Source: Dehalococcoidia bacterium
Lineage (GTDB): Bacteria; Chloroflexota; Dehalococcoidia; Tepidiformales; Tepidiformaceae
Direction: 5' to 3'
Length of the DNA stretch: 64,000 nucleotides
Assembly: GCA_022827945.1 (NCBI GenBank)
Contig: JAJEIT010000013.1
Location: 1 to 64,000 of the forward strand
The position numbers and the translations under genes were made by a program. This document shows, one piece after another, positions 31,044 through 63,419 of this stretch (position 1 is its first letter; each line of letters opens with the position of its first letter). The notes under the pieces were generated by a model that had not been told where the DNA came from, did not search any database, and saw nothing but the letters and a program-made list of their open reading frames with translations.

Positions 31044-31125
31044 TGGGGAAGAGGAGATTCGAACTCCTACGCCTTGCGGCACATGATCCTAAATCATGCT
31101 CGTCTGCCAATTCCGACACTTCCCC
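31044..31125 (-). tRNA. tRNA-Leu (anticodon UAG)
   Basis: An 82-nt cloverleaf reads 5' GGGGAAG on the minus strand and closes with CTTCCCC-A. The anticodon stem CATGA/TCATG encloses TAG, and a variable arm (TGCCGCAAGGCGT) marks a class-II tRNA. The 3' CCA is not encoded. It decodes CUA and other CUN leucine codons. Confidence 0.93.
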
Positions 31126-31170
31126 GGCCCGAACCGGTTGGCGAACCATCCGGTGAGACCTTTCCGAAAG

Positions 31171-31246
31171 TGGTGAGCCGCGAAGGACTCGAACCTTCAA
31201 CCTAGTGATTAAGAGTCACTTGCTCTGCCAATTGAGCTAGCGGCCC
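31171..31246 (-). tRNA. tRNA-Lys (anticodon CUU)
   Basis: A 76-nt cloverleaf with 5' GGGCCGC pairing with GCGGCTC, the D arm TAGCTCAATTGGCAGAGCA, anticodon loop CTCTTAA with CTT, and T arm GAAGGTTCGAGTCCTTC. The 3' CCA is encoded. It is about 45 bp upstream of tRNA-Leu and shares its promoter. Confidence 0.93.
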
Positions 31247-44716: not shown

Positions 44717-44808
44717 GGAGGGGTCGCATAGAGGCCTAGTGCGGGCGCCTGCTAAGCGCTTATCGGCGGAAACGTCGATCGAGGGTTCGAATCCCTCCCC
44801 CTCCGCCA
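44717..44808 (+). tRNA. tRNA-Ser (anticodon GCU)
   Basis: A 92-nt class-II tRNA. GGAGGGG pairs with CCCCTCC; the anticodon loop holds GCT; a long variable arm (TATCGGCGGAAACGTCGAT) and T arm GAGGGTTCGAATCCCTC are present. G73 and an encoded CCA end it. It decodes AGC and AGU. miaB begins 20 bp later. Confidence 0.95.
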
Positions 44809-59510: not shown

Positions 59511-59567
59511 CGCCTCGGGCTTGCCCGTTAACAGCCGACCTGAAACGCTGGATGTGCAGCATTCTCG

Positions 59568-59680
59568 CTGTCGCCAAATCCCCTCCGGGGGAGCGGGGGA
59601 CCCGCCACATTCAGGGGCGTACCGCGAAAGCGGACGGCACCTCCAGTCGTAGCCCGACAGCTAACCCCGCCGGCGTGGGA
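59568..59680 (+). ncRNA. Cyclic-di-AMP riboswitch (ydaO-yuaA type)
   Basis: The aptamer blocks appear in order: TCGCCAAATCCCC, GGGGGAGCGGGGGACCC, CCGCGAAAGCGG, and GCCCGACAGCTAACCCCG ending in GGCG, which pairs with CGCC at the start (P1). These match the conserved core of ydaO-yuaA riboswitches. Such RNAs usually turn genes off when cyclic di-AMP is high. After it, GAGGGACC can pair with GGTCTCTC (about 59679-59703) as a possible expression platform. The first downstream ORF is a 64-aa gene at 59839, followed by a terminator-like hairpin and dnaX. Confidence 0.85.
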
Positions 59681-59838
59681 GGGACCTCAAGTGGGGGTCT
59701 CTCGATCGCTTCGATTCCGCTTCGAGCGAACGCCCAGACCCGAAACGACCGTATGCAGTCGCGCGTCCCCCACGACGCCGCCTGGCCGTGCTCCCGTGGC
59801 GGGAGCATCGCCGCCATTGCTCAGACGGAGGTGAATCT

Positions 59839-60033
59839 GTGATTGAGCATGAACTGGTCCGGTCGGTCCTTCTGGAGCGTCTCATCAAGGCGAACTCGCC
59901 CGAGGTGCGATTCCGCAAGGAGTGGCAAGACCGCCGGGACTCGGCCATCGAGGCCCCCATCAGCGTCCTTCGGGCGGATCCGACCCCCGTCGATCGCTTC
60001 CTCAACGGGAAGGAGATCGAGCGGGCGGCCTAA
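59839..60033 (+). CDS. Small hypothetical protein under the cyclic-di-AMP riboswitch (64 aa)
   Basis: GTG 59839 has GGAGGT about 6 nt upstream. The product is basic and helical (LVRSVLLERLIKANSPEVRF, then RADPTPVDRFLNGKEIERAA). No signal peptide, membrane segment or known domain is visible. It is the first credible ORF after the riboswitch, which in other bacteria controls cell-wall hydrolases and potassium transporters. It may be a small regulator, or a remnant of a longer gene. Confidence 0.5.
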   Translation: MIEHELVRSVLLERLIKANSPEVRFRKEWQDRRDSAIEAPISVLRADPTPVDRFLNGKEIERAA

Positions 60034-60090
60034 CGCCGTCACGCGGGGTCCGGCCCCCGGGGCGGGACTCCGGTCTGGGTGGAAACACGG

Positions 60091-60114
60091 GGCGGGAGCC
60101 AGTCGGCTCCCGCC
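60091..60114 (+). terminator. Strong hairpin, probable terminator before dnaX
   Basis: A perfect 10-bp stem, GGCGGGAGCC and GGCTCCCGCC, with loop AGTC follows the 64-aa ORF by 57 bp. It lacks a clear U tract (TTCGTG), so it may be leaky. Confidence 0.6.
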
Positions 60115-60143
60115 TTCGTGATCCCATGGGCGAAAATCCGTTC

Positions 60144-60149
60144 TATACT
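60144..60149 (+). promoter_or_regulatory. Probable -10 element of the dnaX operon (TATACT)
   Basis: TATACT lies 36 bp before the start GTG; a second hexamer, TATCCT, is at 60161-60166. GGGAGGG follows as the ribosome site. No convincing -35. Confidence 0.5.
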
Positions 60150-60185
60150 CTGCGGACAACTATCCTCACTTGTCCGGGAGGGACG

Positions 60186-61664
60186 GTGCTCTACGGGAAG
60201 TGGCGCCCACGTGGTTTCGAAGAGGTGGTCGGCCAGGACCACGTCGTCGAGACGCTTCGCAACGCTCTCGCGACCGACAAGGTCGCCCACGCCTACCTCT
60301 TCGCCGGGCCCCGCGGCACCGGCAAGACCACCACCGCCCGCATCCTCGCCAAGGCCGTCAACTGCGGCGAGCTCTCCGATGGCGAGCCCTGCAACAAGTG
60401 CCGTTCCTGCGAGGCCATCAACCGCGGCGCCGCCCTCGACCTGATCGAGATGGACGCCGCCAGCAACCGCGGTATCGACGACGTCCGCGAGCTGCGCGAC
60501 AAGATCGCCTTCGCCCCAAGCGACCTCCAGCGGAAGGTGTACCTCCTCGACGAGGTTCACATGCTCACGACCGGCGCCTTCAACGCCCTCCTCAAGACGC
60601 TTGAGGAGCCGCCGCCTCACGCCATCTTCATCCTCGCCACCACCGAGCTGCACGAGATTCCCGCCACCATCACCTCCCGCTGCCAGCGCTTCGACTTCCG
60701 CCGCATCCCCCTCGTGGCCATGGTCGAGCGCCTTCGCCTTATCGCCGAGAAGGAGGGTTACAGCGTCCCCGACGAAGCGCTGCTCGCCATCGCCGACGAG
60801 GGGCGGGGCGCCCTCCGCGACGCCATCACCCTGCTCGAGCAGATTGCCTCGATGTACGGCCCCTCCCCGAGCACCGACGAGGTGCTCGAATCCCTCGGCC
60901 TCGTGCGCGACGAGCGCACGGAGAAGCTCGCCGCCGCCCTCACCGAACGCGACCTCGGCGCCTCCCTTGAGATCGCCCGCGAGGTCGCCGGCGACGGACT
61001 CGACATCGCCCGCTTCACCCGCGAGACCATCGACACCCTGCGCGAGCGCCTGCTCGCCGCCGCCCGCGACCGCACGCCCGAGGTTGGTGTCCTGACGCAC
61101 GCCGTCGCCGAGCTCGCCGGCGCCGACTTCCGCCGCGACCCCGGCAGCCCCGTGCCTCTTGAGGTCGCCTGCGCGGCCGCCGTGCTCGGTCCCGCCCAGC
61201 CGCCGGCTGCCCCCGCCGCACCGGACGCCCAGTCCGCTCAAGGCGGCCAGCAACCCCAGCGCCGCCCGCAGGGTCGCCGCCGCGAGCCCCGCGAAGAGAC
61301 CCGCGAGGAGAGTTTCCTCCGCGAGCTCTACGAGCGCTGCAGGATGACGCAGCCGGCGCTTGCCGCCTGGCTCAACGGCTCTTGCGAGGTGCGCGCCATC
61401 ACCGACAAGGTGCTTCAGCTCGGTTTCTATCACCCCATCCACATGCAGAAGATCGCAAACGACGGCCGCACCCTCGTCGAGCAGAAGGCGGAGGAGCTGT
61501 TGGGGCACCCCGTCACCCTCCTCGTCGAGCGGATCGAGCGCCGGGCGCCCGCCAGCCGTCCGGCAAAGGGCGGACACCTGGCGGCTGCTGCCCGCGAACT
61601 GGGCGCGAAGCCCGTAGAGTCGGGGCCCCCTCCACGCCCGCAGCCCCCCGAGGAGGACTCCTGA
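60186..61664 (+). CDS. dnaX: DNA polymerase III subunit gamma/tau
   Basis: 492 aa from GTG 60186, with GGGAGGG upstream. The clamp-loader ATPase has Walker A GPRGTGKTTTAR, zinc cysteines around CGELSDGEPCNKCRSC and Walker B VYLLDEVHML. A Pro/Ala/Gln linker then leads to the tau C-terminus. No A-rich slippery sequence for a gamma frameshift is visible. Its stop overlaps the ybaB start by one base. First gene of dnaX-ybaB-recR-recO. Confidence 0.95.
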   Translation: MLYGKWRPRGFEEVVGQDHVVETLRNALATDKVAHAYLFAGPRGTGKTTTARILAKAVNCGELSDGEPCNKCRSCEAINRGAALDLIEMDAASNRGIDDVRELRDKIAFAPSDLQRKVYLLDEVHMLTTGAFNALLKTLEEPPPHAIFILATTELHEIPATITSRCQRFDFRRIPLVAMVERLRLIAEKEGYSVPDEALLAIADEGRGALRDAITLLEQIASMYGPSPSTDEVLESLGLVRDERTEKLAAALTERDLGASLEIAREVAGDGLDIARFTRETIDTLRERLLAAARDRTPEVGVLTHAVAELAGADFRRDPGSPVPLEVACAAAVLGPAQPPAAPAAPDAQSAQGGQQPQRRPQGRRREPREETREESFLRELYERCRMTQPALAAWLNGSCEVRAITDKVLQLGFYHPIHMQKIANDGRTLVEQKAEELLGHPVTLLVERIERRAPASRPAKGGHLAAAARELGAKPVESGPPPRPQPPEEDS

Positions 61665-62035
61665 TGGCGAAGAGCAGCGGTCGGAATCGGTACATGCGCC
61701 GCGGTGGCGGCGGTGGCCAGCGTGGCCGTGGCGGCGCCCAGACCGGGCAGCTCGCCGAAGCCCAGGCGATGCTCCAGCGCGCCCAGGAGGAGCTTGCCGC
61801 CAAGACCGTCGAGGGCAGCGCCGGCGGCGGCGCCGTCCGCGTCACCATGAACGGCGAGCAGAAGGTCCAGGCCATCGCCATCGAGCCCGACGTGGTCGAC
61901 CCCGAGGACGTCGAGATGCTGGAGGACCTCGTCCTCGCCGCCATCCACGACGCCTCAGAGCGCGCCAACGCCCTCCAGGCCGATTCCCTCGGAATGCTCA
62001 CCGGCGGCCTCGACCTGCCGGGGCTCGGCGGCTGA
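61664..62035 (+). CDS. YbaB/EbfC nucleoid-associated protein with RGG-type N-terminus
   Basis: 123 aa. The C-terminal 90 residues are a standard YbaB: AQAMLQRAQEELAAKTVEGS, VTMNGEQKVQAIAIEPDVVD and LVLAAIHDASERANALQADS. YbaB binds DNA and works beside RecR. The first 25 residues, containing RNRYMRRGGGGGQRGRGG, are an unusual Arg/Gly-rich extension that could add nucleic-acid binding. It is between dnaX and recR as in many bacteria. Confidence 0.9.
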   Translation: MAKSSGRNRYMRRGGGGGQRGRGGAQTGQLAEAQAMLQRAQEELAAKTVEGSAGGGAVRVTMNGEQKVQAIAIEPDVVDPEDVEMLEDLVLAAIHDASERANALQADSLGMLTGGLDLPGLGG

Positions 62036-62041
62036 GCGGGC

Positions 62042-62647
62042 GTGCCCGAGGCAGGCGCGCCCGAGCCGATCGCCCGCCTGATCCAGGAGTTCTCGAAGCT
62101 CCCCGGGATCGGACCCAAGTCCGCCCAGCGGCTCGCCTACCACGTGCTTCGCGCCCCCGAGGATGACGCCCGCGCCCTCGCCCGCGCGCTCACCGACGTG
62201 AAGGAGCACGTCGTCCTTTGCGACACCTGCTTCAACATCACCGTCCGCAACCCCTGCACCCTCTGCGACGACGAGCAGCGCGACCGTTCGCTCGTCTGCG
62301 TGGTCGAGCAGCCCCTCGATGTGCTCGTCGTCGAGCGCACGGGCGGCTTCCGCGGCCTCTACCACGTCCTCCACGGCTCCCTGAACCCGATCGACGGCGT
62401 CGGTCCCGAGCAGCTCCGCATCCAGGAGCTGCTGCGGCGCGTCGAGGGGGGCGGGGTCGTCGAGGTGATCATGGCGACCAACCCCAGCCTTGAAGGCGAG
62501 GCCACCTCGATGTACGTCCAGCGCCTCCTCCAGCCCCTCGGGATTCGCGTCACCCGCCTCGCCCGCGGCCTCCCCAGCGGCGCCGACATCGAGTACATGG
62601 ACGACCTGACCCTCTCCCGCGCGCTCGAGGGGCGGCAGGAGCTGTAG
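62042..62647 (+). CDS. recR: Recombination mediator protein RecR
   Basis: 201 aa from GTG. The helix-hairpin-helix FSKLPGIGPKSAQRLAYHVL, the zinc finger CDTCFNITVRNPCTLC and the Toprim-like VVEQPLDVLVVERTGGFRGL are present. RecR with RecO loads RecA at gaps. 6 bp after ybaB and 1 bp before recO. Confidence 0.95.
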   Translation: MPEAGAPEPIARLIQEFSKLPGIGPKSAQRLAYHVLRAPEDDARALARALTDVKEHVVLCDTCFNITVRNPCTLCDDEQRDRSLVCVVEQPLDVLVVERTGGFRGLYHVLHGSLNPIDGVGPEQLRIQELLRRVEGGGVVEVIMATNPSLEGEATSMYVQRLLQPLGIRVTRLARGLPSGADIEYMDDLTLSRALEGRQEL

Positions 62648-62648
62648 C

Positions 62649-63419
62649 GTGGCGGCGCGGCCCCGCGTCTACCGCGCCGAAGGCGTCATCCTGCGCCGCC
62701 GCAACCTCGGCGAGGCCGATAGCATCCTTACCGTCTTCAGCGGCCACGAGGGCAAGTTCGAGGCGATCGCCCGCGGCGTGCGCAAGGCCCGCAGCCGCAT
62801 GCGCGGCCACCTCGAACCGTTGACCCGCAGCCGCGTGCTCGTCGCCCAGGGACGCAACCTCGATGTCTTCACCCAGGCCGAGACGGTCGACGCCTATCGC
62901 CGCCTGCGCGAGAGCCTCGATGCCAGCGCCGAGGCCCTCTACTGCCTCGAGCTCGTCGACCGTTTCACCGTGGAGCGCGAGCCGCTCCCCGACCTCTACG
63001 CCCTGCTCGTGACCGCCCTGGATCTGCTGGAGGCGGGGAACGGCGCTGCCGTTACCCGCCACTTCGAGCTGCGCCTGCTCGCCCTTCTCGGCTACGAGCC
63101 CCATGTCGATGGCTGCGTCCTCTGCGGCGAACGCCTCCCCGAGGAGGAAACGCTGCTCTCACCCGCGGCCGGCGGCCTTGTCTGCCGCCGGTGTCGGGCC
63201 GAGGCGGGCGGGGGACGCATCGTGGCGGTGCCGGTCGTGAAGCTGATGCGCTTCGCGCGGCGCGCAACGGCAGCGGAGTTCGTTGCCCTTGCCGCCCCTC
63301 CCGAGGTCGCGCAAGAGCTGCGCGCCGCCGTCGCCGATCTGGTCCGCTATCACCTCGATCGCGACCCTAACGCCCGCCGCTTCGTCGAGGGGGTAAGCGC
63401 CCTCGAACGGAAGGACTAG
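62649..63419 (+). CDS. recO: DNA repair protein RecO
   Basis: 256 aa. The N-terminal OB fold has RVYRAEGVILRRRNLGEADS and GKFEAIARGVRKARSRMRGH; the zinc site is CVLC and CRRC in the C-terminal part. RecO pairs with RecR in gap repair. It ends the dnaX-ybaB-recR-recO cluster; recO in the same operon as recR favours stoichiometric expression. Confidence 0.92.
   Translation: MAARPRVYRAEGVILRRRNLGEADSILTVFSGHEGKFEAIARGVRKARSRMRGHLEPLTRSRVLVAQGRNLDVFTQAETVDAYRRLRESLDASAEALYCLELVDRFTVEREPLPDLYALLVTALDLLEAGNGAAVTRHFELRLLALLGYEPHVDGCVLCGERLPEEETLLSPAAGGLVCRRCRAEAGGGRIVAVPVVKLMRFARRATAAEFVALAAPPEVAQELRAAVADLVRYHLDRDPNARRFVEGVSALERKD

Follow-up and report, generated by a model that had tools for sequence, protein, structure and literature searches.

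A c-di-AMP riboswitch upstream of a small orphan gene, and a candidate SOS box before the neighboring dnaX operon, in a Dehalococcoidia bacterium

The window (the whole 64,000-nucleotide stretch of DNA that was analysed) comes from a Dehalococcoidia bacterium of the family Tepidiformaceae, whose genome assembly comprises 2.85 Mb in 99 contigs. The interval 59511-60185, which is the exact gap between the stop of a cupin gene and the start of dnaX, holds a riboswitch aptamer, a 64-aa open reading frame (orf64) and the elements that separate orf64 from the dnaX-ybaB-recR-recO operon:

59562-59690, + strand: c-di-AMP riboswitch aptamer (RF00379), full length at 62.5 bits by cmscan
59827-59833, + strand: Shine-Dalgarno sequence (SD) of orf64, GGAGGTG, 5 nt upstream of the GTG start
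59839-60033, + strand: orf64, encoding a 64-aa orphan protein predicted to form a helical hairpin; GTG start; conserved in nine genomes of the genus
60091-60114, + strand: GC-rich, terminator-like hairpin with the weak T tail CTTCGTGAT, conserved in nine genomes
60132-60149, + strand: putative dnaX promoter element, GAAAATCCGTTC plus TATACT, a LexA-box-like dyad abutting a -10-like box, recognized by comparison
60186-61664, + strand: dnaX (Pfam)
61664-62035, + strand: ybaB/ebfC (Pfam)
62042-62647, + strand: recR (Pfam)
62649-63419, + strand: recO (Pfam)

When the whole window was searched with Rfam 15 (cmscan), RF00379 (c-di-AMP, ydaO/yuaA) was matched at 59562-59690 (+) with 62.5 bits against a curated gathering cutoff of 38, an E-value of 4.2e-12 for the whole window, and an alignment that spans the full model (1-134). 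The conserved blocks and the closing CGCC/GGCG from which the first-pass annotation had recognized a c-di-AMP riboswitch are all present in this alignment, and that identification is borne out. The remaining window matches above the Rfam cutoff are three tRNAs (tRNA-Leu, tRNA-Lys and tRNA-Ser; 31044-31246 (-), 44717-44808 (+)). The aptamer lies in the 5′ leader of a gene on the same strand, with the start of orf64 149 nt downstream, and is near-invariant in a leader alignment of the nine genus genomes. The gene order aptamer-orf64-dnaX-ybaB-recR-recO is kept in all nine (here and throughout, the genomes counted are not phylogenetically independent), which argues that the arrangement is a real, selected feature; the earlier description of a 64-aa frame followed by this operon is upheld by this synteny, by in-frame conservation of the frame in the nine genomes and by the Pfam assignments of the operon genes. 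The relatives that carry orf64 are designated Chloroflexi, Dehalococcoidia or Tepidiformaceae bacterium and are all metagenome-assembled; to judge from their isolate names, several come from sponges.

The aptamer and the region between it and orf64 contain the elements of a possible expression platform:

59638-59644, + strand: aptamer loop CACCTCC, whose CCTCC can pair with GGAGG (59678-59682) in the aptamer tail and which is complementary over 7 nt to the orf64 SD GGAGGTG
59678-59686, + strand: aptamer 3′ tail GGAGGGACC, pseudoknot partner of the loop (sequence and alignment)
59790-59806, + strand: linker hairpin GCTCCCG-TGG-CGGGAGC, upstream of the SD and without a T run, conserved in nine genomes
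59818-59849, + strand: conserved stem TGCTCA (59818-59823)/TGAGCA (59844-59849), whose loop holds the SD and the GTG start

A terminator scan found no T-run hairpin (intrinsic terminator) between the aptamer and orf64. The TGCTCA/TGAGCA stem is paired in 98% of cells across the nine genomes and carries one two-sided change, from A-T to G-C in a single genome (G004), that is synonymous in orf64. In six of the nine genomes the loop complements the full SD, in the other three at least GGAGG; the mean length of the longest loop-SD match is 6.9 nt in orf64 copies vs. 4.2 nt with shuffled loops. Because a T-run terminator is missing, the stem around the SD and start is conserved and the loop holds a 7-nt complement of the SD, the switch most likely acts on orf64 at the level of translation. 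A general mechanism, in which SD sequestration by the loop would serve all copies of the switch, was considered and rejected, since in the other target groups the loop-SD complement is at chance level and only the orf64 copies exceed it. The c-di-AMP riboswitches studied so far are mostly OFF switches.

Compared with the RF00379 class at large (ydaO/yuaA, kimA), this aptamer is typical in its full length, its complete set of conserved blocks and its loop-tail complement; it differs in its target (an orphan 64-aa protein), in a platform where a conserved stem encloses the SD and start and a T-run terminator is missing, and in its host, a Chloroflexota lineage with CdaA only. For the nlpC riboswitch of Corynebacterium glutamicum, which has no canonical terminator, a CTCC/GGAG pairing between the aptamer and the ribosome-binding site (RBS) was proposed, and translation of the first gene only was affected (PMC9960051). 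The orf64 platform resembles it in both the missing canonical terminator and the aptamer-RBS complement; however, the target genes are unrelated, the complement of the orf64 switch reaches 7 nt in six genomes and is shorter in the rest, and c-di-AMP is made by DisA in C. glutamicum but would be made by CdaA here. The kdpFABC riboswitch of Bacillus thuringiensis belongs to the same aptamer class but has an intrinsic terminator as its platform and a K+ transporter as its target (PMC6488665), and in both respects it differs from the orf64 switch.

Downstream, orf64 and dnaX are separated by 152 nt, and the hairpin at 60091-60114, which the first-pass annotation had placed at exactly these coordinates, occurs in every one of the nine genus genomes despite sequence drift (90.7% of cells paired). 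Three of its pairs show two-sided changes, with a covariation score that was reached by 16 of 500 shuffles, a modest margin, and the region around it has a fold z of -3.3. A simple terminator scan makes no call at this site on account of the short T run. The hairpin is conserved as expected of a terminator, a function that we infer for it, and it may be leaky, given its weak T tail.

Scans for sigma-70 and terminator consensus sequences found nothing in the region, and comparative evidence was used instead to define the dnaX promoter element. TATACT is kept in eight of the nine genus genomes and is absent in G004; the GTTC half of the dyad is lost in another genome (G008). Outside the genus, 21 genomes from 13 further genera of the family were compared, and in 20 of them this element recurs 45-80 nt upstream of dnaX, typically as GCACATCTGTTCTATACT; no RF00379 match was found near dnaX in the 20 loci of other genera scanned with Rfam. 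The motif was derived from the dnaX loci, so that its occurrence before lexA and recA is the independent part of the test: at a criterion of at least 8/9 matching positions, the dyad GAACATNNGTTC was found before lexA in 25 of 27 loci and before recA in 21 of 23 (L217 and L255 are among the sites), compared with 1 of 30 before the control gene DAC and about 3-4% in shuffles. The window's own genome has CGAACATCCGTTCG upstream of lexA and GCGAACAGGCGTTCTA upstream of recA. From these frequencies the dyad looks like a LexA/SOS box. A GAACATNNGTTC-like dyad is common to the dnaX, lexA and recA promoters of this family, as in a LexA (SOS) regulon, but operator activity is a prediction here and the copies before dnaX in the genus have one or two degenerate positions, the window's own box differing from the lexA half-site by one base (GAAA instead of GAAC). 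The dnaX operon probably belongs to the LexA regulon and has its own promoter, with LexA predicted to bind there.

DisA had been named in the first-pass annotation as the maker of c-di-AMP and as a DNA-integrity sensor, and a check for disA in the genome had been suggested. The DisA-linker domain (PF10635) was found in none of 38 family genomes, while control genomes gave three positives; the window's genome encodes a single diadenylate cyclase, CdaA (TIGR00159, 196 bits vs. a cutoff of 188.8), which provides the host with a c-di-AMP synthase. With CdaA only and no DisA, the DNA-integrity premise fails here.

We consider it likely that the locus holds a true c-di-AMP riboswitch that targets orf64 as a single-gene unit, next to a dnaX operon with its own LexA-box-like promoter. 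CdaA, not DisA, would make c-di-AMP; its binding to the aptamer, presumed for this particular copy, would alter the output of orf64 through translation, via the stem around the SD and start and the loop complement to the SD. The orf64 transcript unit would end at the 60091-60114 hairpin, and dnaX-ybaB-recR-recO would be transcribed from a promoter bearing the LexA-box-like operator. In a variant of this scheme, which we regard as unlikely, the LexA-type promoter mainly drives dnaX and partial read-through from the riboswitch unit slightly tunes the repair genes; adjacency, co-orientation, the 152-nt gap and the weak T tail are consistent with it, but it has no positive evidence in its favor, and if control of orf64 is translational, dnaX would be unresponsive even if the two genes shared a transcript, a behavior seen in a two-gene reporter (PMC9960051).

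The reading frame of orf64 is conserved in 9/9 genus genomes at 52-73% identity; in the genus alignment the N-terminal core NSP..RFRKEW is invariant and copies differ by an in-frame 2-codon indel. Over the first 33 codons, differences at the three codon positions number 184:165:280 and dN/dS is low for most pairs, though not for every pair; the C-terminal half evolves fast. AlphaFold2 places two helices at residues 2-18 and 21-38 (mean pLDDT 76). No Pfam or NCBIfam family matches the protein, and no homologue was found outside the genus by a protein search of 60 relatives, by an HMM over the loci collected or by degenerate patterns in 84,980 genomes. orf64 is probably a genus-specific, helical small protein. 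That it is instead a translated leader with a regulatory role only (e.g., in translation-coupled control of the hairpin) and no functional product is quite improbable: its shortness and fast evolution, above all in the C-terminal half, would suit such a role, but the invariant N-terminal motif and the in-frame indel speak against it, the end of orf64 lies ~57 nt from the hairpin arm, too far for overlap with a stalled ribosome, and other switches in the lineage precede small ORFs that clearly encode proteins (zinc ribbons).

A functional link of some kind would fit the fact that orf64 adjoins dnaX in each of the nine genus genomes. We regard as very improbable the proposal in the first-pass annotation, in which read-through of a leaky hairpin would place dnaX-ybaB-recR-recO under the riboswitch and so tie repair to a c-di-AMP DNA-integrity signal; it can draw on this adjacency, on the co-oriented genes with their 152-nt gap and on the T-poor tail, but it is contradicted by a hairpin conserved like a terminator, by the lack of DisA in the family genomes searched and a CdaA cyclase in the window's genome, by the riboswitches surveyed in other genera, which precede genes other than dnaX, and by the family-wide promoter element of dnaX at 60132-60149, which is present where no riboswitch exists. 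The proposed link between c-di-AMP and repair genes is therefore probably wrong.

The window's genome has three RF00379 switches; besides the one before orf64, there is one upstream of a 72-aa zinc ribbon and one upstream of a gene for a KamA-family radical SAM enzyme. Among 150 switch copies surveyed in relatives, with target ORFs picked heuristically (SD, start, conservation), the recurring targets are the 72-aa zinc ribbon (33 genomes), a 59-aa zinc ribbon (19 genomes), the KamA family (14 genomes), two orphan families of 158-160 aa, and an MFS-like transporter, a SulP-like transporter and an OtsA-like trehalose synthase, the last three named by sequence inspection and not by family search. 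The statement in the first-pass annotation that known targets are mostly wall hydrolases and potassium transport does not describe the pattern of this lineage.

The 72-aa zinc ribbon (MPALQEAPP..CPKC..CIMCGYVHEVL) lies directly 3′ of its riboswitch, with the own-genome copy at L004:2380-2595 (C57); of 16 further loci that encode it, at the edge of the family or beyond it, 15 have RF00379 close upstream. In family f2, cobalamin riboswitches on the opposite strand adjoin the riboswitch-zinc-ribbon locus (L308, L311, L312). The 59-aa zinc ribbon (MLR..PWWRK...RRCPEC..RYCP) lies 3′ of another c-di-AMP riboswitch in its 19 genomes, which include G009, G011 and G012. At L005:1501-2871 (C74) in the window's genome, a c-di-AMP riboswitch precedes a divergent KamA-family radical SAM protein, possibly an enzyme for a β-amino-acid osmolyte; on the far side of this locus are apparent Ku and LigD genes in the opposite orientation.

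As a small orphan target, orf64 is in keeping with these other switches, and by analogy with other targets in the lineage it perhaps functions in osmotic or K+ physiology. No relevant paper linking c-di-AMP riboswitches to Dehalococcoidia, zinc ribbons or dnaX was found in a search of the open-access literature. We tentatively suggest, at slightly less than even chances, that in Dehalococcoidia-related Chloroflexota c-di-AMP riboswitches largely switch small uncharacterized proteins (orf64, the class-wide 72-aa zinc ribbon and the 59-aa zinc ribbon) together with osmolyte-type enzymes, and that the small proteins are a new kind of c-di-AMP effector.

The locus adds a new orphan target to those of c-di-AMP riboswitches, and the tempting but unsupported connection of c-di-AMP with the repair genes falls away. 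A lineage in which such switches often precede small orphan proteins is the more interesting lead, and the association of switch and zinc ribbon makes the function of the small proteins testable. For this uncultured group, the dyad common to lexA, recA and dnaX is a candidate SOS box.
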